Shown one piece after another: positions 7,523 to 41,689 of a stretch of DNA of 41,689 bases; the stretch's first letter is position 1; every line of letters starts with the position of its first letter. A model generated the notes under the pieces. The model ran no database searches, had not been told where the DNA came from, and was given only the letters and a program-made list of their open reading frames with translations. The stretch covers positions 1 through 41,689 of the forward strand of contig JAFGES010000048.1 of the NCBI GenBank assembly GCA_016931455.1, in the 5' to 3' direction. This stretch comes from Desulfobacterales bacterium. Its GTDB lineage: Bacteria > Desulfobacterota > Desulfobacteria > Desulfobacterales > JAHDSC01. A program made the translations under genes and the position numbers.

Positions 7523-7630
7523 GGTTCCCCCTTTTCTATTCTTTCACCTATAAATTTAAAAATAATGTTTTAACAATTTAGCATCATTTTAAGTTGAATT
7601 TTGGTTTTTGCCTTTTGATATGCCCAAGGT

Positions 7631-8626: not shown

Positions 8627-8931
8627 TATTTGCCTCTCGCTGTGAAATAGGCAATAGTCATAAAATATTATATTTTGAACAATATCATAATTATCTAATA
8701 TTAAATGAAAATCAGGTGTCTTCCTATCGCAGACTCGTATCGCGGCAGCAAAAATTTTCCTAAGAAGATCATTTAATATTTATTTGTCTGAAGGGATGCT
8801 ATGATGCTATATTTGGTAAAAGTAAAATAATCAGCTTATCTTACTTTTTAGTGGATTCAGCCTTAATTTTAATTTTTTTATTCCCTATGACTTCTAATAA
8901 ATAGGTGAACCCGGTTCGTGAAAGAACCGGA
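8627..8931. other. Intergenic spacer between the two STN-PDZ genes
   Basis: About 305 bp, AT-rich, with no convincing reading frame on either strand. It holds the hairpin just after the 8932-9720 stop codon (8911-8930) and the ribosome site of the 7631-8626 gene. I looked for a sigma54 -24/-12 pair on the minus strand and found only a near match with wrong spacing. The length and the hairpin suggest that the downstream gene has its own promoter, but I cannot place it. Confidence 0.5.
8911..8930 (-). terminator. Hairpin just after the short STN-PDZ gene
   Basis: A perfect 7-bp stem (CCGGTTC/GAACCGG) with a 6-nt loop begins a couple of bases after the TAA stop of the 8932-9720 gene. On the minus strand the following bases are AT-rich but not a clean T-run, so it may terminate weakly or protect the mRNA end. 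Confidence 0.45.
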
Positions 8932-9720
8932 TTAATGAAGCTCTATATAAATCGGGTCGATTTCGTGATTATTTTTTAAGCGCTCTATTCTTATTGAAGG
9001 CAGTTTTCCAGGAGAGCTCTGAAGTGCGTCAATGAAGTCATCTGTCGTATTGACGGATGTGCCGTTTACATCAGAGATGATATCGCCCTCATTTATGCCA
9101 ATCTGGTGAAAGATAGAATCTATAGAAATATTTTTAATAAGGATTCCTTTGCCGGACTGGTCTTCCGGCAATTTTGTACCCTTGTCGGCAGGAATTGCTG
9201 ATATTTGTTTTGTCAGTATATTTTTATTCTGAATCTTTTGCTCGAACCATTTCTTCCGATATTTTTTTTTATAATCTTCTGCATTTAACGGATCTCTACC
9301 TATATCAGAATTAGATTTTGATATAAAATTGTTTTTCTCATTAATTGTTTTCAGCGTATTATTACCTAATATCCGTACTTCTATGGGAACAAAACGATTG
9401 TTTTCAGTTTTTCTAAAGAGCAATACATAATTTCGATTCGCCAATAGACGTCGGAGACAATCCTCAATAGATGCTTCATAGAGGTGAAGAGTAATTGAAT
9501 CGGTCAAAGAATCTTCCGTTTTAAGAATCATGCCCGTTTTTAAAGAGATAGCTTGAAGGACATTGATAAGTGGAGACTGATTGGCTTCGATATCAATTAG
9601 AGAGTTTGTTACGTTTATGTTGAGGGAAGATGCCTGGGCCATACCTAAAAAGGATAAGAAAAGACAGAAGATGTATCCAATGATGGAGTGGTTAAAAAGT
9701 TTGGCATAGTTTAGATTCAT
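8932..9720 (-). CDS. Exported STN (secretin N0-like) plus GspC-like PDZ protein, short paralogue
   Basis: 262 residues with an N-terminal hydrophobic export segment (about residues 12-30, ending MAQASS). Residues about 33-115 are STN/N0-like (SPLINVLQAISLKTG, then ASIEDCLRRLLANRNY). Residues about 185-262 form a GspC-type PDZ (DSIFHQIGINEGDII, then SDVNGTSVNTTDDFI), ending EIDPIYIELH. The ending and domain order match the 331-residue neighbour (IEPIYVEME), so the two are tandem paralogues with a diverged linker. There is no clear Shine-Dalgarno before the ATG at 9720. It lies 74 bp after the 771-residue PKD gene, separated by a strong hairpin. A periplasmic adaptor role is inferred from the domain pairing. 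Confidence 0.8.
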   Translation of the reverse strand: MNLNYAKLFNHSIIGYIFCLFLSFLGMAQASSLNINVTNSLIDIEANQSPLINVLQAISLKTGMILKTEDSLTDSITLHLYEASIEDCLRRLLANRNYVLLFRKTENNRFVPIEVRILGNNTLKTINEKNNFISKSNSDIGRDPLNAEDYKKKYRKKWFEQKIQNKNILTKQISAIPADKGTKLPEDQSGKGILIKNISIDSIFHQIGINEGDIISDVNGTSVNTTDDFIDALQSSPGKLPSIRIERLKNNHEIDPIYIELH

Positions 9721-9750
9721 AGTTATTGCAGAATATTTTTGATATTTTAA

Positions 9751-9784
9751 TTCAGTCCGACAACCTGAAGGTTGCCGGACTGAA
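9751..9784 (-). terminator. Hairpin after the 771-residue PKD gene
   Basis: A long inverted repeat (TTCAGTCCG.CAACC, loop of 4, GGTTG.CGGACTGAA) with a single mismatch, just after the stop of the 9795-12110 gene. The flanking sequence is AT-rich. It probably ends or attenuates transcription between this gene and the STN-PDZ genes. Confidence 0.6.
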
Positions 9785-9794
9785 TAATTTACTA

Positions 9795-12110
9795 CTATCT
9801 TCCGGTTGGAACCAGAATTTGAACTGGATCAGAATCACAATCATCGCCGGCAAATACGCTCTTTACATAGTAAAAATAAGTATTCCCACTGGTAACGGTA
9901 CTGTCCAGATAAGTGGAATATGTCGAAGTGGTTTCAGCGATTTTGTTATAGATAGTTCCCCCGTCATCACTACGGTAGATATCATAACGATCAGCGTCTA
10001 CATGTGTCCAAACCAGTTGAACTTTGCCGCGTTTTGCTCGGGCCGTGAGATCATCCACACATGTCACACAATACTGATTATCCACGTGCACCGTCGTCCA
10101 GGCTACATTTGTCAAGCCATTGCTGTCCGTTACTTTCAACGCGATATCATAGATTCCCGGAGTTGCCCATGTCATTTCAACCGTTTCACCGGTTGCATCG
10201 TCATAATCATAAGGCACCAGCAGGTCGATTTCCCAATCCCAACTAGCGATATGATCGCCTTCAGGTTCGTCGATATCAAAAGATTCGGAACCATCCAAGG
10301 TGATCGTTCCACCCGGACAGACTGTATATGGTCCGCCTGTGACGGCTGTGGGAGCATGCGGAGGCGGTGTCACTTCAATATCAATGGTTTCCGTGTCTCT
10401 TTTCACCGGTGAGCTATCATCTGTTACTCTCAAGGTCACAATAAAGGTACAAGGAGTCGGATAGGTATCACAATGAAAGGTGTAAGTCGGTTTTGCATTG
10501 ATATCCGTCGATGACCAGTCATATGTTCCATCATCGTCAAAGTCATATTCAAAAAGTGTTAGATTATGATTAGGATCAAGGTGGTATGATGCGGAGTGAT
10601 CGAAGGTAACGGGGACATCCTGTCCTGTAGGATTGGGATCGGCTGTCACCACAGCTACCGGCTGTGCCTCGAAACCGCTTAAAATGATGGTTGCCCAGGC
10701 CGTTGCGAATACACGGCCATAATAATCTCTAAATCGACCTCGAGTTGAGGAGGAACTGACATTTCTATCTTGATCCTCAATGAGTCGTTTTGCCAGTCCC
10801 CAAGTTGTTGCATCTCCCCGGTACCAGTCAAAGCCGTTGTATAAAGTTTCCACCGGTGTCGGCAGGGCAAGGCTGAAGGCCTTGAAACCGGCATAATACC
10901 CATAGTAGTCGTAAGAATTGTTCCAGGAATTCCAATAGATGACAAAATAGTCTTCACATCCTATCCAGCGGTAATCACTGGTGTCTTTTCCACAAAAAGA
11001 CAATTGAACCATACCAGACGGAGTTGTCGCGGTACCCGCTCCCTGGCCTGTGTAGCCAAAACCGCTGTATGATCCATAATCCCGGTAGCTGTAGCCCAAC
11101 CAAACGTCATTTCGGTCTTTAACCCACTGGGGAACCGTACATCCCCAAGTTCTTTCGGCTGGGATCATACCAATAGCAGCCCACTGACAGGCGGAATTAT
11201 CACCTTGTACATTCCAGCTATATCGCCAACCGCCGGCATTAATACCTGAAGCGGCATCCCCCTGGCCCCAGGCATACATATCGCACATATCCTGAATGAT
11301 ATCCTTATATGTGCGGCCGATAACATTTACAGGTCCTGTCGCGGCAATCGCACCGGGCGTCCTGGAGTTGATGATCGCATCCATCACCATGCCGCCTTCG
11401 TAAATAGGACGACTTCCGGTTACTTGTATTCCAAGCATATTTCCGTTGGTATCAGGATCACCATAAGTTTGGGCCCCAATGGTAGCAGCGCCCAGGCGTG
11501 TAAAAATGTATGCCAAACCTTTTGAAACGGTTTCTACGTATGGATCTTCATTCGGATTACCGATTTCAAGGTGATTGTTTACCTCAAAGGCATGCACGGC
11601 CGAGGCTGTCGGTGATGCATAATAAGAGCCGTAGGAAGCCCAATGCCCGTCGGCATACTGCTGTTTATAAAGCCACCAAAGGGCATCATCAACCGCTACG
11701 GCCCTTTCCGTATCGAGGTTGAAATTTTTAATTCTTACTCGATAGATATCGCTGATTTCATTTGAGCCGTCGTTAACCGTTAATGTAGCGATAAAGGGCG
11801 TTCCCACCGTACCTGAATAGGCATGGAAAATATCAACATTATACTTTGTGGATCCGGAGAGAGAACCGGTGATGTTCGCACTTCCATCTCCAAAGTTCCA
11901 CGCATAAGACATAGCTGCCGTATTGTCTGCATGGACCACGGCTTTAAGAAGTATAACCTTGCCGTCCCATGTTTGGTGATCGGCAAGTATATTTCCTTCC
12001 CACGGCACACAGATGACTTTTGTCACTGCTGCTGCCCCCACTGAGGCCATGGATAGAAAGACAACGGCTGTCAGCGCTAGGAATAAGATATTTTTTTTAT
12101 TTATCTTCAT
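9795..12110 (-). CDS. Secreted PKD / alpha-alpha-toroid / PKD / FN3-like protein
   Basis: 771 residues with a signal peptide (residues 1-28, ending VGAAA). Domains in order: a PKD domain (about 31-130, YAWNFGDG); an alpha/alpha-toroid of the prenyltransferase/squalene-cyclase repeat type (about 135-480, with ALWWLYKQQYADGHW and Trp/Tyr-rich repeats); two PKD domains (about 483-583 and 584-678); and a C-terminal fibronectin-III-like domain (about 679-771, VQLVWTHVDADRYDIYRS). I see no DxDD cyclase motif, so a binding or structural role is more likely than catalysis. The first three modules align in order with the toroid segment of the giant protein at 1-7522, so one looks like a duplication of part of the other. 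It sits 108 bp downstream of the PEP-CTERM gene, probably in the same transcript. The ribosome site is modest (GGGAA). Confidence 0.9.
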   Translation of the reverse strand: MKINKKNILFLALTAVVFLSMASVGAAAVTKVICVPWEGNILADHQTWDGKVILLKAVVHADNTAAMSYAWNFGDGSANITGSLSGSTKYNVDIFHAYSGTVGTPFIATLTVNDGSNEISDIYRVRIKNFNLDTERAVAVDDALWWLYKQQYADGHWASYGSYYASPTASAVHAFEVNNHLEIGNPNEDPYVETVSKGLAYIFTRLGAATIGAQTYGDPDTNGNMLGIQVTGSRPIYEGGMVMDAIINSRTPGAIAATGPVNVIGRTYKDIIQDMCDMYAWGQGDAASGINAGGWRYSWNVQGDNSACQWAAIGMIPAERTWGCTVPQWVKDRNDVWLGYSYRDYGSYSGFGYTGQGAGTATTPSGMVQLSFCGKDTSDYRWIGCEDYFVIYWNSWNNSYDYYGYYAGFKAFSLALPTPVETLYNGFDWYRGDATTWGLAKRLIEDQDRNVSSSSTRGRFRDYYGRVFATAWATIILSGFEAQPVAVVTADPNPTGQDVPVTFDHSASYHLDPNHNLTLFEYDFDDDGTYDWSSTDINAKPTYTFHCDTYPTPCTFIVTLRVTDDSSPVKRDTETIDIEVTPPPHAPTAVTGGPYTVCPGGTITLDGSESFDIDEPEGDHIASWDWEIDLLVPYDYDDATGETVEMTWATPGIYDIALKVTDSNGLTNVAWTTVHVDNQYCVTCVDDLTARAKRGKVQLVWTHVDADRYDIYRSDDGGTIYNKIAETTSTYSTYLDSTVTSGNTYFYYVKSVFAGDDCDSDPVQILVPTGR

Positions 12111-12218
12111 TTGATTTCCCTTTCATTCAATCATAAATAGCCGTAAATTGAATTGATGCACAAAAACGCAGCCCTTTCCCCCCGAAAAGGATTGCAGCAT
12201 CTATTTCAATGAATTCCT
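12111..12218 (-). other. Intercistronic region with a G6-loop hairpin and ribosome site
   Basis: Between the PEP-CTERM gene and the PKD/toroid gene. On the minus strand it has a small hairpin at 12173-12190 (CCTTT/AAAGG stem, loop TCGGGGGG) and, at 12116-12125, the ribosome-binding segment of the downstream gene. The 12116-12125 plus-strand 10-mer TTCCCTTTCA recurs exactly at 17359-17368 inside the predicted sigma54-driven transcript. The G6 could pair with the C6 loop at 17386-17391. Confidence 0.4.
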
Positions 12219-12911
12219 TTATTTGTTTCTATGCCTCTTAGAAAGATTTTTTCTTGTAAAACCAATGAGTCCTAAAATACCCGTGCCGAACAACATCACA
12301 GTACAGGGTTCCGGGATCGGATGAATCTTTAACTCACTGGAAAAGTAGATCGTTGCATCGCTATCCGGATCGGTTTGGGCAAGATAAAAACCTGAATCCG
12401 GAACTTCATAGGATAAGTTAATAAAGATTTCAGCCCAATCACCCGGATTCAAGAAAAATTCCCATCCCATAGCCCAAGAGACGTCATCTTTAGATCCTTC
12501 AGGAACAGCATTGGTGTTGTCTAAAACTCCTGCTAAGACATGAGCGTAAATGTCGCCGAAACAGGGATCATCAATTTCCCAGGACTGTTTGATCTTTGGT
12601 GAATCAATTGCGGTTCCATATTCATTGAAAAAAGTATTTATTGCTTCATCAATTTCATAATCGAAAAAGGCAATAAAATTATGGGGACCAGCTTCATATG
12701 TTTTCCAGGTTAATTCTCCTAGATCACCTATCAATGCTCCGCCGGTAATGTCAACCGGCATTCCGGACGTATCGTATTCAGCCGGAGCAACGGTTAATGT
12801 TTCATCAATTTTAAACGCCCAGTCATAAAGGCTAATCGTAACAGCCGAAGCGGGCATAAGGCTAAGGCCTAAAAATAAAACGGATAAAAAAATGATTTGA
12901 AGTTTTTTCAT
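12219..12911 (-). CDS. PEP-CTERM sorting-signal protein
   Basis: 230 residues with a signal peptide (1-23, ending MPASA). The C-terminus has the PEP-CTERM tripartite signal: Pro-Glu-Pro (IPEPCTVMLFGTG), a hydrophobic helix, then a basic tail (RKNLSKRHRNK). This signal is recognised by exosortase, with the protein destined for the outer surface or exopolysaccharide matrix. The body (ISLYDWAFKIDETL...) has no recognised fold. Start ATG at 12911 with an ideal AAGGAGG at 12920-12926. It is first in the minus-strand series and lies about 100 bp downstream of a strong sigma54 promoter. No exosortase gene is in the window. Confidence 0.9.
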   Translation of the reverse strand: MKKLQIIFLSVLFLGLSLMPASAVTISLYDWAFKIDETLTVAPAEYDTSGMPVDITGGALIGDLGELTWKTYEAGPHNFIAFFDYEIDEAINTFFNEYGTAIDSPKIKQSWEIDDPCFGDIYAHVLAGVLDNTNAVPEGSKDDVSWAMGWEFFLNPGDWAEIFINLSYEVPDSGFYLAQTDPDSDATIYFSSELKIHPIPEPCTVMLFGTGILGLIGFTRKNLSKRHRNK

Positions 12912-13019
12912 TCAAATAACCTCCTTTTAATAAAATTATTGCTTTGCCCATTTTTTGCCTAGTTTTTTCTGATCACCTCCTTCTCAAAATTATGTATAGA
13001 AATAACCAATTCCTTAGAA

Positions 13020-13035
13020 TGCAATTAAAATGCCA
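13020..13035 (-). promoter_or_regulatory. Sigma54 (-24/-12) promoter for the PEP-CTERM gene
   Basis: On the minus strand the sequence is TGGCATTTTAATTGCA. GG and GC are exactly 12 bases apart, close to the consensus TGGCAC-N5-TTGCW. Predicted start of transcription is near 13009, giving a leader of about 98 nt. An NtrC-type activator is encoded about 2.7 kb away. Confidence 0.8.
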
Positions 13036-13118
13036 TTTTAAACTAGTTGAGAAAAAATCTTAACTATATGATATCATGTTGTATTTTTTAAAATCCATTT
13101 TTAAATATAAATTTGGCT

Positions 13119-13136
13119 TATGAAAAATTTTTCATA
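13119..13136. promoter_or_regulatory. 18-bp perfect palindrome, possible activator site
   Basis: A perfect inverted repeat (half-site TATGAAAAA) centred about 118 bp upstream of the predicted sigma54 start. That is the usual distance for an enhancer bound by an NtrC-type activator. It is AT-rich, so chance is a real alternative. Confidence 0.35.
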
Positions 13137-13331
13137 TTATTATGAACAGTATTACTCAATGTGTATCGATATAGCCATTTTATAGCAGCATCAGTAACAT
13201 AATGACATCTATTAAAAAGAAGCTGTGCATTGAATTGATGTAGAAAATATTTAAGACTATATTCCATATGAAATATTTATTATGTAGTAATTTATTAAGA
13301 CAAAAGACAAGAATCCTTTTTGAGGTTAATC

Positions 13332-13360
13332 TTGACATACCCTGCCGTCCTATCTATAAC
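13332..13360 (+). promoter_or_regulatory. Sigma70 promoter for the YdjY-kinase-activator operon
   Basis: TTGACA at 13332-13337, a 17-bp spacer, then TATAAC at 13355-13360. Transcription would begin near 13367, about 83 bp before the ATG at 13450. It is one of the best sigma70 matches in the window and would supply the regulators constitutively. Confidence 0.75.
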
Positions 13361-13449
13361 TTATTTTAAATACTAAATGATTATTGTGATTTCATAAAAG
13401 TGAGTTCATAAAACCTCTGATGAGTGATGAAAAAGAAAGGTCTTTTTAA

Positions 13450-14223
13450 ATGGGGTTAAAATTTGTTACAAACATTATTTTGATTTGTCTCATTTCTCTA
13501 TTGCCGTTAAAAGGATATGGTGCAGAAAAACCGGCAATTACTGCAATTGAAAAACCGGTCGGCAGAGATGCTCCTTTCTTGGATAAAGGGCCGGCACCGG
13601 AAATGGCGGCAATGCCGATCATTCAGAAACTCGAAAATGGAATATTACGCTTTGATAATATGACGATTAACAAACAAGAGGGATATGTGCGTGTAAATGG
13701 TGAAATAAACATGGACGAAGGTCTGGTGGAATATCTGGCTTGCGGCCCTTACGGAAAGCTTCACGAGAGCATTTTGAAACTTGACGTTGTTCCTTATTAT
13801 TTGCAGATTGCTTTGCTTCTTATCGACCTTGAACCCGGAAACAACCCTCTTGAATTTCAGGGCCAGCAACGTGCTCCGAAGGGTGATTTGGTCGAGCTAT
13901 GGATTTCATGGGAAGGCAAGAACAAGATAAAAGTGGGCTGCCGAGCTGAAGATCTGATTTTCAATAATAAAACGAAAAATAAGATGCAGCATACGCATTG
14001 GATATTTACCGGATCGCAGATATTAGACGGTCGATTTATGGCTGATGTGGAGCAATCTATTGCAGCCACCTATCACGATCCTTTCGCAATGTTTGATCAT
14101 CCGCTTGAAACCGGTTCGGATGATACCATTTACTTTGTAAACAAAGAGGTAGTACCGCCCAAGGGGACCCCCATAACTTTTGAAATCAGGCCATTGCCGC
14201 CTCTAAAGGCGATAAAAAAATAA
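13450..14223 (+). CDS. Exported YdjY-like domain protein
   Basis: 257 residues with a signal peptide (1-24, ending GYGAE). The core (about 60-200) has the pattern I associate with the YdjY domain family (LACGPYGKLHESIL, then LQIALLLIDLEPG). The function of that family is not established. The ATG at 13450 has an AAAGG ribosome site. It is first in an operon with the histidine kinase (53-bp gap) and the response regulator, so it may act in the periplasm in sensing or as part of the same envelope programme. The family assignment is from memory of the motif and is moderately secure. Confidence 0.65.
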   Translation: MGLKFVTNIILICLISLLPLKGYGAEKPAITAIEKPVGRDAPFLDKGPAPEMAAMPIIQKLENGILRFDNMTINKQEGYVRVNGEINMDEGLVEYLACGPYGKLHESILKLDVVPYYLQIALLLIDLEPGNNPLEFQGQQRAPKGDLVELWISWEGKNKIKVGCRAEDLIFNNKTKNKMQHTHWIFTGSQILDGRFMADVEQSIAATYHDPFAMFDHPLETGSDDTIYFVNKEVVPPKGTPITFEIRPLPPLKAIKK

Positions 14224-14276
14224 GCTTCCCTATCTTGTCGGATAGAATTATATAAGGGGTATACAAAATATTTTCC

Positions 14277-15671
14277 ATGAAAAAGCTGCGTACCCGGATC
14301 ATTATTCCATTTCTATTGCTGTTTTTAATGATCGGCCTGATTTCGATTTTAATAGAGCAGTCTTATATTTCCGGTTTGATAGATTCCAGGATATCCAGCC
14401 AAGCAGAGCGGATATCCCAAGTACTTTCCAATTCTGAATTTGTGCTCAATCCAATATACCTACTTAAATTAAAAGAGATAATCGATGGAGAGATTGTCGT
14501 TTTTGATAAGAAAGAGAAAGTCATCGTCTCCACTGTATCTAAAGAAAAATTGTTTGAGTACAAGCAAAAAATTAACATCCAAGATCTTTTTCTTCTTTTG
14601 GATAGGGGTAAAAGAAATGTTTCCCGGCAGGTTTTAACTAACGAGCATGATTCTTATCTGATAACGACGAGGTTGTTAATTGTTCCCGCAAATCCACGGG
14701 AAAGAATGATGCTTTGTATTGTTTCTCCTTTGGCTGATGTTTTCAGTGCTAAGGCAAAGATAAGAAACAGAATGTTTCTCATTGGTATTTGCGGTCTTAT
14801 TTTAGCCGGCTTGTTCAGTTATATTATTTCTAGATCCGTGACGAATCCAATAAATGATATTGTTGCCGTTACTCGGGATATTGCAGAGGGACATTTTGAA
14901 AAAAAGGTGATTGTTTCATCTGTTGAGGAACTCAAATTGCTGACGGTTTCCATTAACAGCATGACGGATAAATTAAAGAAATATAAAACTCAAATTGTTC
15001 GTTCAAGCCATTTGGCCGCTGTAGGCAAAGTGACGGCAGCCATAGCTCATGAGATAGGAAATCCGCTTTCCAGCATTAAAATGATGGCACAGCTATTGCG
15101 GAATCGGTTAGCTTCGAATTCGGAAAACAGATCCATCATTCATTCACTTCTGGAAGAGATAAGCAGATTGGAAAGAATTGTAAAAGAGCTCAATCAATCC
15201 GTGAAATCTTTTGAACTTACTCTCAATAAAATGAATCTGAACGAAATTATAGATGAAGTCCTTGCAGTGATAACGCCTAAGCTGGCTCATCGTAATATTG
15301 ACTTGACAACTGAACTTAAGCATTCATTGCCCTTGGTAAAAATTGATAGAGATAAAATTAAGCAAGTCATTTGGAACCTTCTCTTAAACGCTATGGAAAG
15401 CATGCCCCAAGGAGGTACGATCAAAATTTTGACCGATGAAAAACCCATTTCAAATACTCTAGAAATTATTATCGAGGATGAAGGTTACGGTCTTTCCGAT
15501 GATAGTTTAAAAAAAATATTTTCACCTTTTTTTACCACAAAAGAGGAAGGTTTGGGGCTGGGTCTTTCCACCAGCAGAGAAATTATTAAAAGACATGGCG
15601 GTAGCTTGTCAATCGAAAACCTTGCCGAAAAGGGGGCAAGAGCTGTAATTGTTCTTCCTATAAAAAGCTGA
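14277..15671 (+). CDS. Membrane sensor histidine kinase
   Basis: 464 residues. TM1 is at about 8-27, followed by a periplasmic sensor of about 135 residues, TM2 (about 166-186), HAMP (about 187-240), HisKA with phospho-acceptor His258 in AIAHEIGNPLSS, and an HATPase domain (N-box NLLLNAMESM, G-boxes DEGYGLS and GLGLGLSTS, F-box FSPFFTT). It autophosphorylates and should donate phosphate to the NtrC-type regulator that begins 12 bp after its stop codon. The sensor ligand is unknown. The form resembles kinases that partner sigma54 activators in Desulfobacterota; it is not the multi-membrane PrsK kinase described for PEP-CTERM systems. Confidence 0.93.
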   Translation: MKKLRTRIIIPFLLLFLMIGLISILIEQSYISGLIDSRISSQAERISQVLSNSEFVLNPIYLLKLKEIIDGEIVVFDKKEKVIVSTVSKEKLFEYKQKINIQDLFLLLDRGKRNVSRQVLTNEHDSYLITTRLLIVPANPRERMMLCIVSPLADVFSAKAKIRNRMFLIGICGLILAGLFSYIISRSVTNPINDIVAVTRDIAEGHFEKKVIVSSVEELKLLTVSINSMTDKLKKYKTQIVRSSHLAAVGKVTAAIAHEIGNPLSSIKMMAQLLRNRLASNSENRSIIHSLLEEISRLERIVKELNQSVKSFELTLNKMNLNEIIDEVLAVITPKLAHRNIDLTTELKHSLPLVKIDRDKIKQVIWNLLLNAMESMPQGGTIKILTDEKPISNTLEIIIEDEGYGLSDDSLKKIFSPFFTTKEEGLGLGLSTSREIIKRHGGSLSIENLAEKGARAVIVLPIKS

Positions 15672-15683
15672 GGAATACTATTG

Positions 15684-17117
15684 ATGGCCAAGGTGTTGAT
15701 CGTTGATGATGAAGAGAAAATCTGTTTCGCTTTTTCACATTTTTTAAAAGACATAGGCCATATGCCTTTTATTGCGGCTAACACAACAGATGCGCTTAAA
15801 ATCATATTAAACGAAAAACCCGAAATCATTTTTTTAGATATACGTTTGCCGGGTGAAAGTGGTTTATTGTTGCTCGATAAGATAAAAAAAAGAGATAGAG
15901 ATATAGAAAGCCGTGTTGTAGTAATGACCGCTCATGGTACGATGGACACGGCGATACAGGCCATGCAATTGGGGGCTGATGAGTATTTAACAAAACCGAT
16001 AGACTTGGACCAAGTGAGTCTCTTAATTAAAAGGCTGTCCCGATTTAACGAAGTCAAACCTCTTTTCAAACTGAACAAGCCGGATCTTGCACTAAATGGA
16101 AAATCGGATATTTTTATCGGAAAAAGTCAGGCCATACAAGATATTTACAAAATGATAGGTCTCATGACGACCAATGATGTTCCCGTTCTTATTGAGGGCG
16201 AAAGCGGGGTAGGAAAGGAGCTGGTAGCAAAAACCATTCATTTTAAGAGCGAACGTAAAAAATTCCCCTTTGTGGCCATCAATTGCGGCGCTATGCCGGA
16301 TAACCTTCTAGAAAGCGAACTTTTTGGATATGAAAAAGGGGCCTTCACCGGAGCCCAGAACCGTAAAATCGGTAAGTTTGAGTATGCAGCAGGAGGCACT
16401 ATCTTCCTGGATGAAATCGGTGATTTGAAATTTCCTCTGCAGATTAAGCTCTTGAGAGTCCTGCAGGAAAAACAGCTGGTTCGTATCGGAGGTCTTGAAT
16501 CCATTCCCGTACAGGCTCGAGTCATTACAGCTACAAATAAGAATCTATATGAAGAAGTAGAGTCCAAAAATTTCAGAAGTGATCTTTATTATCGACTACA
16601 GCTTATTACTCTGAAAATTCCTCCTCTGCGGGAAAGAAAGGTAGATATTCCGGATTTAACCGAATATTTTATTTATAAGTCAAACCGAGAACTGGGTAAA
16701 AATATCAGCGGAATTGAAAAATCAGTGTTGGATGAATTTCATTCTTACCACTGGCCGGGAAATGTTCGCGAACTTGAAAATGTTATTAAACGGGCTGCTA
16801 TACTTACACCGGGAAAAGTTCTAAGTATACATCAAATGGAGCCGCTTAGATCAAAGAACATTAAAACTCAAAATACCCCTTCAGCCGATTTATTGGAACG
16901 AACCATTAGAAAATGTTTTAAAGCCGTGGATTCTTCTCCATTTTTTAAATCCGGTCAACTTTACAAGAATATTATTCAAATAGTGGAAAAGACGATGATA
17001 GAAGAAGCGCTGGAATTTTGTGATCATAACCAGCTGAAGGCATCCGGACTTCTGGGAATGAATCGTTCCACGTTTAGAAATAAAATAACGGAATATGAGC
17101 TTAAAACCGAGAAATGA
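15684..17117 (+). CDS. NtrC-family sigma54-dependent response regulator
   Basis: 477 residues from the ATG at 15684; a TTG three bases upstream is less likely, with AGGA at 15671. The receiver domain (1-120) has the acidic pocket VDDEE and phospho-acceptor Asp in FLDIRLPG (about residue 52), followed by MTAHG and K. The AAA+ domain (about 140-375) has Walker A GESGVGKE, the sigma54-contact loop GAFTGA, Walker B TIFLDEIGD and the R-finger region FRSDLYYRL. The C-terminal Fis-type helix-turn-helix ends SGLLGMNRSTFRNKI. It should open sigma54 promoters; candidates lie at 13020-13035 and 17316-17331, flanking this operon. Confidence 0.95.
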   Translation: MAKVLIVDDEEKICFAFSHFLKDIGHMPFIAANTTDALKIILNEKPEIIFLDIRLPGESGLLLLDKIKKRDRDIESRVVVMTAHGTMDTAIQAMQLGADEYLTKPIDLDQVSLLIKRLSRFNEVKPLFKLNKPDLALNGKSDIFIGKSQAIQDIYKMIGLMTTNDVPVLIEGESGVGKELVAKTIHFKSERKKFPFVAINCGAMPDNLLESELFGYEKGAFTGAQNRKIGKFEYAAGGTIFLDEIGDLKFPLQIKLLRVLQEKQLVRIGGLESIPVQARVITATNKNLYEEVESKNFRSDLYYRLQLITLKIPPLRERKVDIPDLTEYFIYKSNRELGKNISGIEKSVLDEFHSYHWPGNVRELENVIKRAAILTPGKVLSIHQMEPLRSKNIKTQNTPSADLLERTIRKCFKAVDSSPFFKSGQLYKNIIQIVEKTMIEEALEFCDHNQLKASGLLGMNRSTFRNKITEYELKTEK

Positions 17118-17142
17118 CAAAAAATGTGCAAAAATGTCATTT
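17112..17142. promoter_or_regulatory. Inverted repeat at the end of the regulator gene
   Basis: AAATGACA (17112-17119) and TGTCATTT (17135-17142) flank a 15-nt spacer containing TGTGCA. The first arm overlaps the stop codon. It could be a weak terminator (TTT follows) or an activator-binding site upstream of the sigma54 promoter at 17316. I cannot choose between them. Confidence 0.3.
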
Positions 17143-17236
17143 TCTGTACAAATTTTAAGCTATTTCAATTTGAGCTTGTAAAATCAAATAAATATATTGT
17201 CTTTTAATACTTCCTGATTTTTCCCACATAAGTATC

Positions 17237-17260
17237 ATATAATATTTTAAAATATTATAT
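17237..17260. promoter_or_regulatory. 24-bp perfect palindrome upstream of sigma54 promoter
   Basis: A fully symmetrical AT-only inverted repeat (half-site ATATAATATTTT), centred about 94 bp before the predicted start site. The position suits an enhancer, but AT-only palindromes arise easily, and the half-site differs from that at 13119-13136. Confidence 0.3.
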
Positions 17261-17315
17261 CGATTCCCATACCTACCGGAGATAAAAACAAAATAGGGTT
17301 TTTAATATTTATTTT

Positions 17316-17331
17316 CGGCATATAAATTGCT
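17316..17331 (+). promoter_or_regulatory. Sigma54-type promoter before the toroid/TonB operon
   Basis: CGGCATATAAATTGCT. GG (17317-17318) and GC (17329-17330) are exactly 12 bases apart, with a consensus TTGCT -12 element. The -24 element lacks the first G-preceding T of TGGCAC. Predicted start is near 17342. Confidence 0.6.
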
Positions 17332-17341
17332 TGTAAAATAT

Positions 17342-17412
17342 AAACAAACTTAAAGAACTTCCCTTTCAATTGGATAACGCTTTTGCCCCCCAATTAAGCG
17401 TTATCCTTTTTT
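17342..17412 (+). ncRNA. Candidate sigma54-driven small RNA (or attenuated leader)
   Basis: From the predicted sigma54 start to the T-run of the terminator is about 71 nt. The 5' part is unstructured and pyrimidine-rich (CTTCCCTTTC at 17358-17367). The 3' part is the terminator hairpin, whose loop contains six C. Unpaired C-rich segments are typical of bacterial small RNAs that pair with ribosome-binding sites. The alternative is a leader of the 17548 gene in which the hairpin attenuates transcription. No reading frame of note. Confidence 0.4.
17372..17412 (+). terminator. Intrinsic terminator in the leader
   Basis: A perfect 11-bp stem (GGATAACGCTT / AAGCGTTATCC), a 13-nt loop with CCCCCC at 17386-17391, then six T. 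It is a textbook rho-independent terminator about 255 bp after the regulator gene but downstream of the sigma54 promoter, so it would act on that promoter's transcript. Confidence 0.85.
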
Positions 17413-17547
17413 CTAGTATGCTATGAAAAAACTTAAAATTCTATAATATTTTTTATTCAATCCAAACTGCGCTTATTGAAGCGCAAAACTGATTATAAGT
17501 TAAAATTACTTTTTATTTAAAATACTTTTGGAAAAGAGGATAAAATT
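17413..17547 (+). promoter_or_regulatory. Rest of the leader of the toroid gene
   Basis: It holds a perfect TATAAT at 17442-17447 with no good -35 box, and a 7-bp hairpin (17468-17485, TGCGCTT/AAGCGCA) without a T-run. If the upstream terminator is efficient, the toroid/TonB operon needs a promoter here or regulated read-through. I found no cobalamin-riboswitch-like element. Confidence 0.35.
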
Positions 17548-18765
17548 ATGAAAAGGTCTTTTAACTGTCTTAGAAGAACACCTCATGTGATTGCCGTCTT
17601 GCTGTTGATCCTGTCTTCAATTTTTTTAAGTTCAGAATCTGTGAAATCCGAAATCATTCAATCTACTCAAGAGGACATTTCTCTTAAAAAGGAGGTCAAA
17701 CGGGCATTTCAAAATGGATTTGAATTTTTAAAGACGAAACAAAACCCGGATGGATCTTGGTCAAATCCGGATTTTCCCGCTCTAACAGGATTGGTGATAT
17801 CCGCATTTTTAAATTCATCTGAATATGCCGCAACACCACAAAGACCCGATTTCATACAAAAAGGCCTTGATTTCATCATTCGAAACGCAAAAGAAAATGG
17901 TTCTATTTACAAGGAGATTTTGCCCAATTACAATACAGCGATTTGTATGATGGCACTGATGGCGGCAAATGATGCCCAATACTATCCATACGTTTTAAGA
18001 GCGCGCAAATATTTAATTTCGCTACAGGCCGATAAGGGGCAAAAAGGGGTAGCGGATGACATTTATGATGGTGGAATCGGATACGGCACCAAGGATCACC
18101 CTGACTTGTCAAATACTTATGTGGCTCTTGAAGGTTTGAAAATGACCGAAATCTTGGAGTCTGATCAGCATTTAAAAGCTTACACCGACCTTCAAGAAAT
18201 GCGGAAAAAAACATTAAATTGGGATGCTGCCCTCAAGTTTATTCAAAGGTGTCAGAATCTTCCCGGTTCCAACGATCAAAGCTGGGCCAGTGATGATCCT
18301 GATAACAAGGGCGGTTTTGTTTATTACCCGGGAAACAGCAAGGCCGGTGAACAGCACCTATCGGAGGGTAAAGTCGCTTTGCGATCCTATGGTAGTATGA
18401 CCTATGCCGGCTTGCTTAGCCTGATTTATGCGGATCTAAAAAAAGATGATTCAAGAGTGACGGCTGCTTATAAATGGATTCAAAAAAATTATACTCTAAC
18501 TGAAAATCCCGGATTAGGACAACAAGGACTTTACTATTACTATCATACAATGGCAAAAGCGTTAACGGTTTTCGGCGAAGATTATTTGAAAACCGCCGAT
18601 GGTCATCAAATTGACTGGCGTAAGGACTTGACGATTAAATTCGTCGAGCTGCAAAAAGGCGATGGTTCTTGGGTCAATGACAGCGGTCGCTGGTGGGAAA
18701 ACGATCCAATACTCGTTACCTCCTATGCGCTGATTGCCATGAACATGATCAGTTTTTGTTTGTAG
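17548..18765 (+). CDS. Exported alpha/alpha-toroid (prenyltransferase/squalene-cyclase repeat) protein
   Basis: 405 residues with an N-terminal signal (about 12-35, ending SEIIQS). The rest is a run of toroid repeats, each a helix pair with a Gly/Trp-rich turn (FLKTKQNPDGSWSN, ADDIYDGGIGYG, DPDNKGGFVYYPG, LQKGDGSWVND). The fold is shared by squalene cyclases, the thioester domain of complement-like proteins and the cobalamin carriers transcobalamin/intrinsic factor. I see no DxDD cyclase acid motif and no GCGEQ thioester motif, so a ligand-binding role is more likely. The ATG at 17548 has a good GAGGA site. The gene lies 43 bp before a TonB receptor in what looks like one operon, which hints at substrate capture at the outer membrane; that is inference. 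Confidence 0.85.
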   Translation: MKRSFNCLRRTPHVIAVLLLILSSIFLSSESVKSEIIQSTQEDISLKKEVKRAFQNGFEFLKTKQNPDGSWSNPDFPALTGLVISAFLNSSEYAATPQRPDFIQKGLDFIIRNAKENGSIYKEILPNYNTAICMMALMAANDAQYYPYVLRARKYLISLQADKGQKGVADDIYDGGIGYGTKDHPDLSNTYVALEGLKMTEILESDQHLKAYTDLQEMRKKTLNWDAALKFIQRCQNLPGSNDQSWASDDPDNKGGFVYYPGNSKAGEQHLSEGKVALRSYGSMTYAGLLSLIYADLKKDDSRVTAAYKWIQKNYTLTENPGLGQQGLYYYYHTMAKALTVFGEDYLKTADGHQIDWRKDLTIKFVELQKGDGSWVNDSGRWWENDPILVTSYALIAMNMISFCL

Positions 18766-41603: not shown

Positions 41604-41689
41604 TGGCGGAAGTGCATGGGAATCGAACCCACCCGGGACGGTTTTAGCGCCCCACACCGGATTTGAAGTCCGGGAGCCCCACCAGTGAG
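41604..41689 (-). tRNA. selC: tRNA-Sec (selenocysteine, anticodon TCA), 5' end beyond window
   Basis: The minus strand has an anticodon arm CCGGA-CTTCAAA-TCCGG with anticodon TCA. A long variable arm follows (GGGGCG/CGTCCC stem). Then come a T arm (GTGGG-TTCGATT-CCCAT), the 3' half of an 8-bp acceptor (GCACTTCC), the discriminator G and encoded CCA. About ten bases of the 5' acceptor strand and the start of the D stem lie outside the window. Its presence means the organism makes selenoproteins. The 3' end faces the NERD/restriction block. Confidence 0.92.

Follow-up and report, generated by a model that had tools for sequence, protein, structure and literature searches.

A small RNA (sRNA) that lies over the ribosome site or the first codons of an mRNA lowers its translation. 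The Qrr sRNAs of Vibrio need Hfq, and their targets are quorum-sensing regulators. Two reports present the LuxO-activated Qrr RNAs as post-transcriptionally acting sRNAs driven by sigma54 and an enhancer-binding protein (PMC10162802, PMC8043402). CrcZ and CrcY of Pseudomonas, associated with CbrAB, are sigma54-dependent sRNAs that form their own units just downstream of the NtrC-type regulator gene, an arrangement conserved in synteny (PMC8871633). GlmY, associated with QseEF/GlrKR, is a sigma54-dependent sRNA encoded by its two-component genes and linked to the cell envelope (PMC6075780, PMC8745638). In the sulfate reducer Desulfovibrio vulgaris, Dv_sRNA2 is a target of the response regulator DVU0679; it is described without a function or a named target mRNA, and similar candidates were reported downstream of DVU0679 orthologs (PMC3333781). 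For PEP-CTERM genes, the PrsK/PrsR report describes an NtrC-type regulator and sigma54-type promoters located before these genes (PMC1569441).

The locus analysed here lies in a 41,689-nucleotide stretch of DNA from a member of the Desulfobacterales, referred to below in its full length as the window. Positions 17342-17412 probably constitute the gene of a trans-acting sRNA, which would be driven by an NtrC-type regulator together with sigma54 and would block the translation of a PKD-domain protein encoded in the same cluster. Comparison of the sequences shows a conserved element and a pairing that co-varies in seven genomes.

The element at 17316-17412 and its surroundings

The element is located on the plus strand, between the gene of an NtrC-type regulator and a toroid gene. 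As the sequence-only reading had stated, it opens with a sigma54 -24/-12 promoter, CGGCATATAAATTGCT (GG-N10-GC; 17316-17331). When the 5' end is set 12 nt past the GC of the -12 element and the 3' end at the run of T, a predicted sRNA of about 71 nt is obtained (17342-17412), belonging to an element conserved in eight genomes. It contains box 1, UUCCCUUUCA (17359-17368), and box 2, a run of six C (17386-17391) in the loop of the terminator hairpin. The terminator (17372-17412) is made up of a hairpin with 11 bp and a C6-containing loop (17372-17406), followed by six T (17407-17412). Its minimum folding energy of -15.4 kcal/mol (z -4.4 against shuffles) bears out the earlier claim of a strong terminator at the end of these 71 nt or so, and all coordinates given with that claim proved correct when checked against the window sequence.

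Upstream, on the same strand, are the genes of a sensor histidine kinase (14277-15671; HAMP, HisKA and HATPase domains) and of the NtrC-type sigma54 response regulator (15684-17117; receiver, AAA+ and Fis-type HTH domains), which is the proposed activator. This regulator is 61% identical to the one adjoining the element in G301 (locus L015), a Desulfosarcina MAG, and it scored 372.6 bits with the PrsR equivalog TIGR02915, below the cut-off of 502.6. The sigma54 gene rpoN was found in the window genome. About 180 nt 5' of the -24 site lies a predicted regulator box, TGTCATTTTCTGTACA (17135-17150, plus strand), which has one match only within the window and agrees at 15-16 of its 16 positions with boxes that lie about equally far upstream in G301 and G279. 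The form common to the three genomes, TGWCATTTTYTRTACA, situated ~180-195 nt upstream, is a candidate binding site of the regulator. A 20-bp perfect palindrome, ATAATATTTTAAAATATTAT (17243-17262), is found ~55 nt 5' of the -24 site and is a possible second regulator site.

The toroid gene located 3' of the element (17548-18765, plus strand; squalene-hopene-cyclase-like, PF13243) is 72% identical to its ortholog in L015 and is followed by the gene of a BtuB-like TonB receptor. A further hairpin, TGCGCTT/AAGCGCA (17467-17486), follows the sRNA terminator ahead of the toroid gene, and the far end of the window (41608-41689, minus strand) carries a tRNA-Sec gene (Rfam RF01852) truncated by the window end. 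The element reached the Rfam gathering score of no family, either in the window or in eight relative loci, and gave sub-threshold matches only. Hfq (PF17209) had no match in the window genome (G000, 97% complete), while the same search was positive in controls such as E. coli; with no recognisable Hfq in the genome, the proposed pairing would need either no chaperone or another one.

Recurrence of the element in other Desulfobacterales

A DNA search with positions 17250-17550 found no homologous element in 40 relatives, and relatives were therefore located by protein synteny. By way of protein orthologs the cluster was traced in the Desulfobacterales genomes G301, G279, G236, G350, G351, G243, G042 and G182, in which the regulator gene usually precedes, or faces, the order Ino1, toroid, EboE-like, UbiA and phosphodiesterase (Pfam assignments). 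By this kinase/regulator-Ino1-toroid cluster the element recurs in seven other Desulfobacterales genomes, with the same anatomy 5' of Ino1 or toroid: a sigma54 site, a UUCCC box, a second C-rich box and a terminator-like hairpin. The motif GG-N8-TTGC was present at the corresponding position in G301, G236, G351 (two), G243, G042 (two) and G182. The two boxes are spaced by 19-20 nt in seven elements (window, G301, G279, G236, G351, G243 and G042), while stems and flanks vary, stem lengths differing widely; in G182 and the second G042 copy the same parts stand in a somewhat different order. GG-N8-TTGC with a C4-loop hairpin within 15-90 nt was found in 6 of 9 regions, a combination that arose in no more than 0.25% of the dinucleotide shuffles of any one region. 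By fold, the ends are terminator-like in the window, G236, G243, G351 and G182. The regulator and kinase genes adjoin the element in the window, G301, G279, G182 and the second copy of G042, and are close but re-arranged in G236 and G351. The second G042 copy of cluster and element is on another contig, with YdjY-toroid downstream, and its target-like paralog carries AGAAAGGGGAA.

Three genomes depart from this anatomy. In G279 the hairpin is present and the sigma54-like site is 315 nt away from it, with an inserted-looking stretch between the two. This stretch (L077, about 9030-9340) has inverted ends, TGGTGTCAGGAAA/TTTCCTGACACC, and is possibly a small insertion. In G351 the copy on the Ino1 side lacks a terminator and extends into the ribosome site, an intact copy being found before toroid. 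G350 holds the element in degenerate form only. In the same genome (L105, about 8800-11100 and 12978-15457) a stretch that resembles a reverse transcriptase by eye lies between toroid and PKD, the PKD gene is split, and an intact sRNA was not found, possibly a case of joint loss.

The element was absent from the more distant YdjY-toroid loci of G067, G088, G139, G162 and G039. A search for the sigma54-C-box-C-box pattern over 389 genomes gave mostly chance matches, and the window genome yielded the known copy only. The toroid family (PF13243) itself occurs in Desulfobacterales within ebo-like clusters together with Ino1, a xylose-isomerase-like TIM barrel, UbiA and phosphodiesterase (L015 to L062), and has relatives in many Verrucomicrobia/Kiritimatiellae; the toroid of the window is accompanied by the BtuB-like receptor instead of ebo-like genes.

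Probable pairing with the PKD mRNA

The proposed target is a PKD/toroid gene of 771 aa with PKD domains (9795-12110, minus strand), whose product would be a large secreted protein. Its ribosome site is covered, from -15 to -6 of the start, by UGAAAGGGAA (12116-12125, minus strand), and this is indeed the perfect 10-nt complement of box 1 that had been claimed. A PEP-CTERM gene (12219-12911, minus strand) lies 5' of PKD, possibly in the same transcript; the C-terminal PEP-CTERM motif of its product is weak (19.1 bits against a cut-off of 20.7). The pair is preceded by a sigma54-like promoter, TGGCATTTTAATTGCA (13020-13035, minus strand; -124), a site which is clear in the window, near-consensus in G236, and looser or absent elsewhere when a strict pattern is applied. 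The PEP-CTERM/PKD pair is kept in seven genomes. PKD homologs occur near the element in G301, G350, G351, G243, G279 and G236, each adjoined by a PEP-CTERM gene, and they have unusual ribosome sites of the GGGG type. The giant PKD gene of the window has the ribosome site AAAAGGGGGAACC (7525-7540, minus strand); it scored 18 against the sRNA, as compared to 24 for the 771-aa gene.

Genome-wide rankings covered ~440 kb of the window genome and ~200-240 kb each of G351 and G279. Among 325 start regions of the window genome, the PKD site ranked 8th by accessibility-corrected energy, and by ungapped run ten regions, PKD included, reached the PKD score; within the window it was sixth of 25 start regions by duplex energy. 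Over 3.38 Mb of this genome the 10-mer was counted 22 times, and of 20 other sites examined one was a clear further ribosome site (L128). The sequence-only reading had itself warned of chance matches, and for the window alone the warning was justified: at rank 8-10 of 325, the 10-nt match is not significant.

The comparison among genomes is more telling. The cognate element and PKD gene pair over 10 bp in the window, 19 in G301 (where the site comprises codons 2-8 of PKD), 14 in G279, 8 in G236, 20 in G351, 14 in G243 and 14 in G042, and both sides change together, as in UUUCA/UGAAA (window), UUGCA/UGCAA (G243) and the GCAG/CUGC end (G042). In the seven genomes the true assignment of elements to targets scored best of all 5040 reassignments; it was still the best in every subset tried (1/720 for six genomes without G042, 1/720 without G351 but with G042, and 1/120 for five genomes). 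When the CCC core was kept and the flanks were shuffled, none of 2000 trials reached the observed sum. Duplex energy used in place of the score gave a weaker result (13/720 reassignments).

Individual genomes point the same way. In G351 PKD was the top start region, with a score of 45 against 27 for the next (176 genes); it was also the top region in G301 and G243, and ranked first by accessibility-corrected energy in all three. A blind scan of all ORF starts within 20 kb in G042 singled out a secreted 551-aa gene by a PEP-CTERM gene, with 14 bp and a score of 34 against 24 for the next. In G351, a search with the sequence complementary to the PKD ribosome site retrieved the second, complete sRNA copy before toroid, which comprises a separate sigma54 site, both C-boxes and a terminator, and ends well before the toroid gene. 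The Ino1-side copy, considered earlier as the sRNA of G351, was replaced by this intact one; with the Ino1-side copy in the test, or with G351 left out, the true assignment still scored best. G236 is an exception, as its 8 bp are formed through box 2 and the neighbouring PEP-CTERM gene matches better. In G182 the element is present and no PKD target was detected. Covariation in related genomes had been proposed as a check of the pairing, and for box 1 the outcome is positive, in the reassignments as well as in the blind G042 match. Taken together, these comparisons suggest that the sRNA very probably pairs with the PKD mRNA, and that it would lower its translation.

The other pairing proposed by that reading, between the C6 of box 2 and a G6 loop upstream in the PKD mRNA, fared differently. 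A terminator-like hairpin with a G6 is present (12172-12191, minus strand; G6 at 12178-12183), but the G6 is only partly in the loop, two of its six G belonging to the stem, and the structure resembles a terminator following the PEP-CTERM gene. Shuffles gave the C6-G6 match of the window an unremarkable p of 0.35, and 289 of 720 reassignments were as good or better; second matches in G301, G279 and G243 reached p 0.01-0.05 singly and were jointly no better than reassignment. What stands of the earlier interpretation is a predicted discrete sRNA under sigma54 control, as suggested by the conserved element, that pairs with the ribosome site of PKD.

Other explanations of the match have to be weighed. 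Such matches could arise simply because the hairpin is rich in C and ribosome sites are rich in purines, and for the window taken alone this holds; as an explanation of the whole it is very improbable, since the reassignment and flank-shuffle controls retain the C/G cores and still pick the true pairs, and since the G042 match was found blind. The match might also represent a DNA site for a single protein, shared by two places on opposite strands, with no RNA pairing. Both places do lie within one gene cluster, but the sequence differs strongly between genomes despite regulators that are 50-60% identical, yet matches within each genome, and it overlies the start site as a complementary sequence, so that this idea can nearly be dismissed.

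Alternatively, the element may belong to the toroid (or Ino1-toroid) operon as its 5' leader, working in cis from the sigma54 promoter by termination or readthrough at the hairpin. Its invariable position just 5' of Ino1 or toroid on the same strand (YdjY-toroid for the second G042 copy) would agree with this, and so would the Ino1-side copy of G351 that continues without a terminator into the ribosome site. Such a leader is nevertheless improbable, given the terminator-like ends listed above, with no conserved alternative fold noted, the complete G351 copy that stops well before toroid, and the co-variation with the PKD ribosome site, which it leaves unexplained. A somewhat unlikely scenario, which overlaps the trans-acting sRNA and is not exclusive of it, is that the element serves both roles, a stable sRNA being formed where a longer sigma54 transcript terminates, with partial readthrough into toroid/Ino1. 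The element and the operon are co-located in every genome, and before the window toroid only weak sigma70-like matches and no other clear promoter were seen; the strong terminator argues against it. The trans-acting sRNA that blocks PKD translation is the reading adopted below.

Proposed mechanism and relation to known systems

We infer that the element is transcribed with the regulator as its activator, that it represses PKD, and that the genes are wired as a feed-forward loop. The kinase and the NtrC-type regulator would sense a signal, upon which the regulator, with sigma54, would activate the sRNA; box 1 would then cover the PKD ribosome site or the first codons and block ribosome binding. 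As a separate sigma54 site precedes the PEP-CTERM-PKD pair in the window, the same signal may switch on this operon and lower its second gene: the mRNA could be made while the sRNA holds down PKD, and the outcome would be discoordinate expression, an incoherent feed-forward loop. The full proposal is put forward tentatively, at somewhat below even chances: a new sRNA family, independent of Hfq, would diverge between species together with its mRNA partner and, under one sigma54 signal, repress the second gene of the PEP-CTERM-PKD surface-protein operon during expression of that operon. Since the terminator separates the sigma54 promoter of the window from the toroid/TonB operon, a sigma54 signal that raised this operon would require readthrough or another promoter. 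The PEP-CTERM genes adjoining PKD in G301 (L103, 3958-4659) and G236 (L076, 14648-15319) have the ribosome site GGGGGA, which also matches the sRNA, and are possibly a second target.

Having no Rfam match and an arrangement like those of CrcZ, Qrr, GlmY and Dv_sRNA2, the predicted sRNA is, as judged from the genomes compared, a new family of that kind, with an unusually well supported target. CrcZ differs in that it sequesters Hfq/Crc, whereas the present RNA appears to pair with one mRNA, in a genome where no Hfq was found. The Qrr RNAs are unlike it in both sequence and targets, and GlmY is a decoy that acts through RapZ, without mRNA pairing (PMC7073468). No sRNA is described for PrsK/PrsR in the passages of PMC1569441 that were examined, and the present regulator falls below the PrsR cut-off; the open-access literature searched yielded neither post-transcriptional control of PEP-CTERM genes nor an sRNA of this sort. 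The locus offers a predicted, regulator-linked sRNA with a named target and co-variation in seven genomes, and no Hfq is recognisable in its genome. Each species has its own, cleanly matching pair, which makes swap and compensatory tests direct. By description, Dv_sRNA2 resembles it in belonging to a sulfate reducer and in lying downstream of the gene of the response regulator that targets it, and the present case hints at what an sRNA of the kind that adjoins a response regulator in Desulfovibrio may do.
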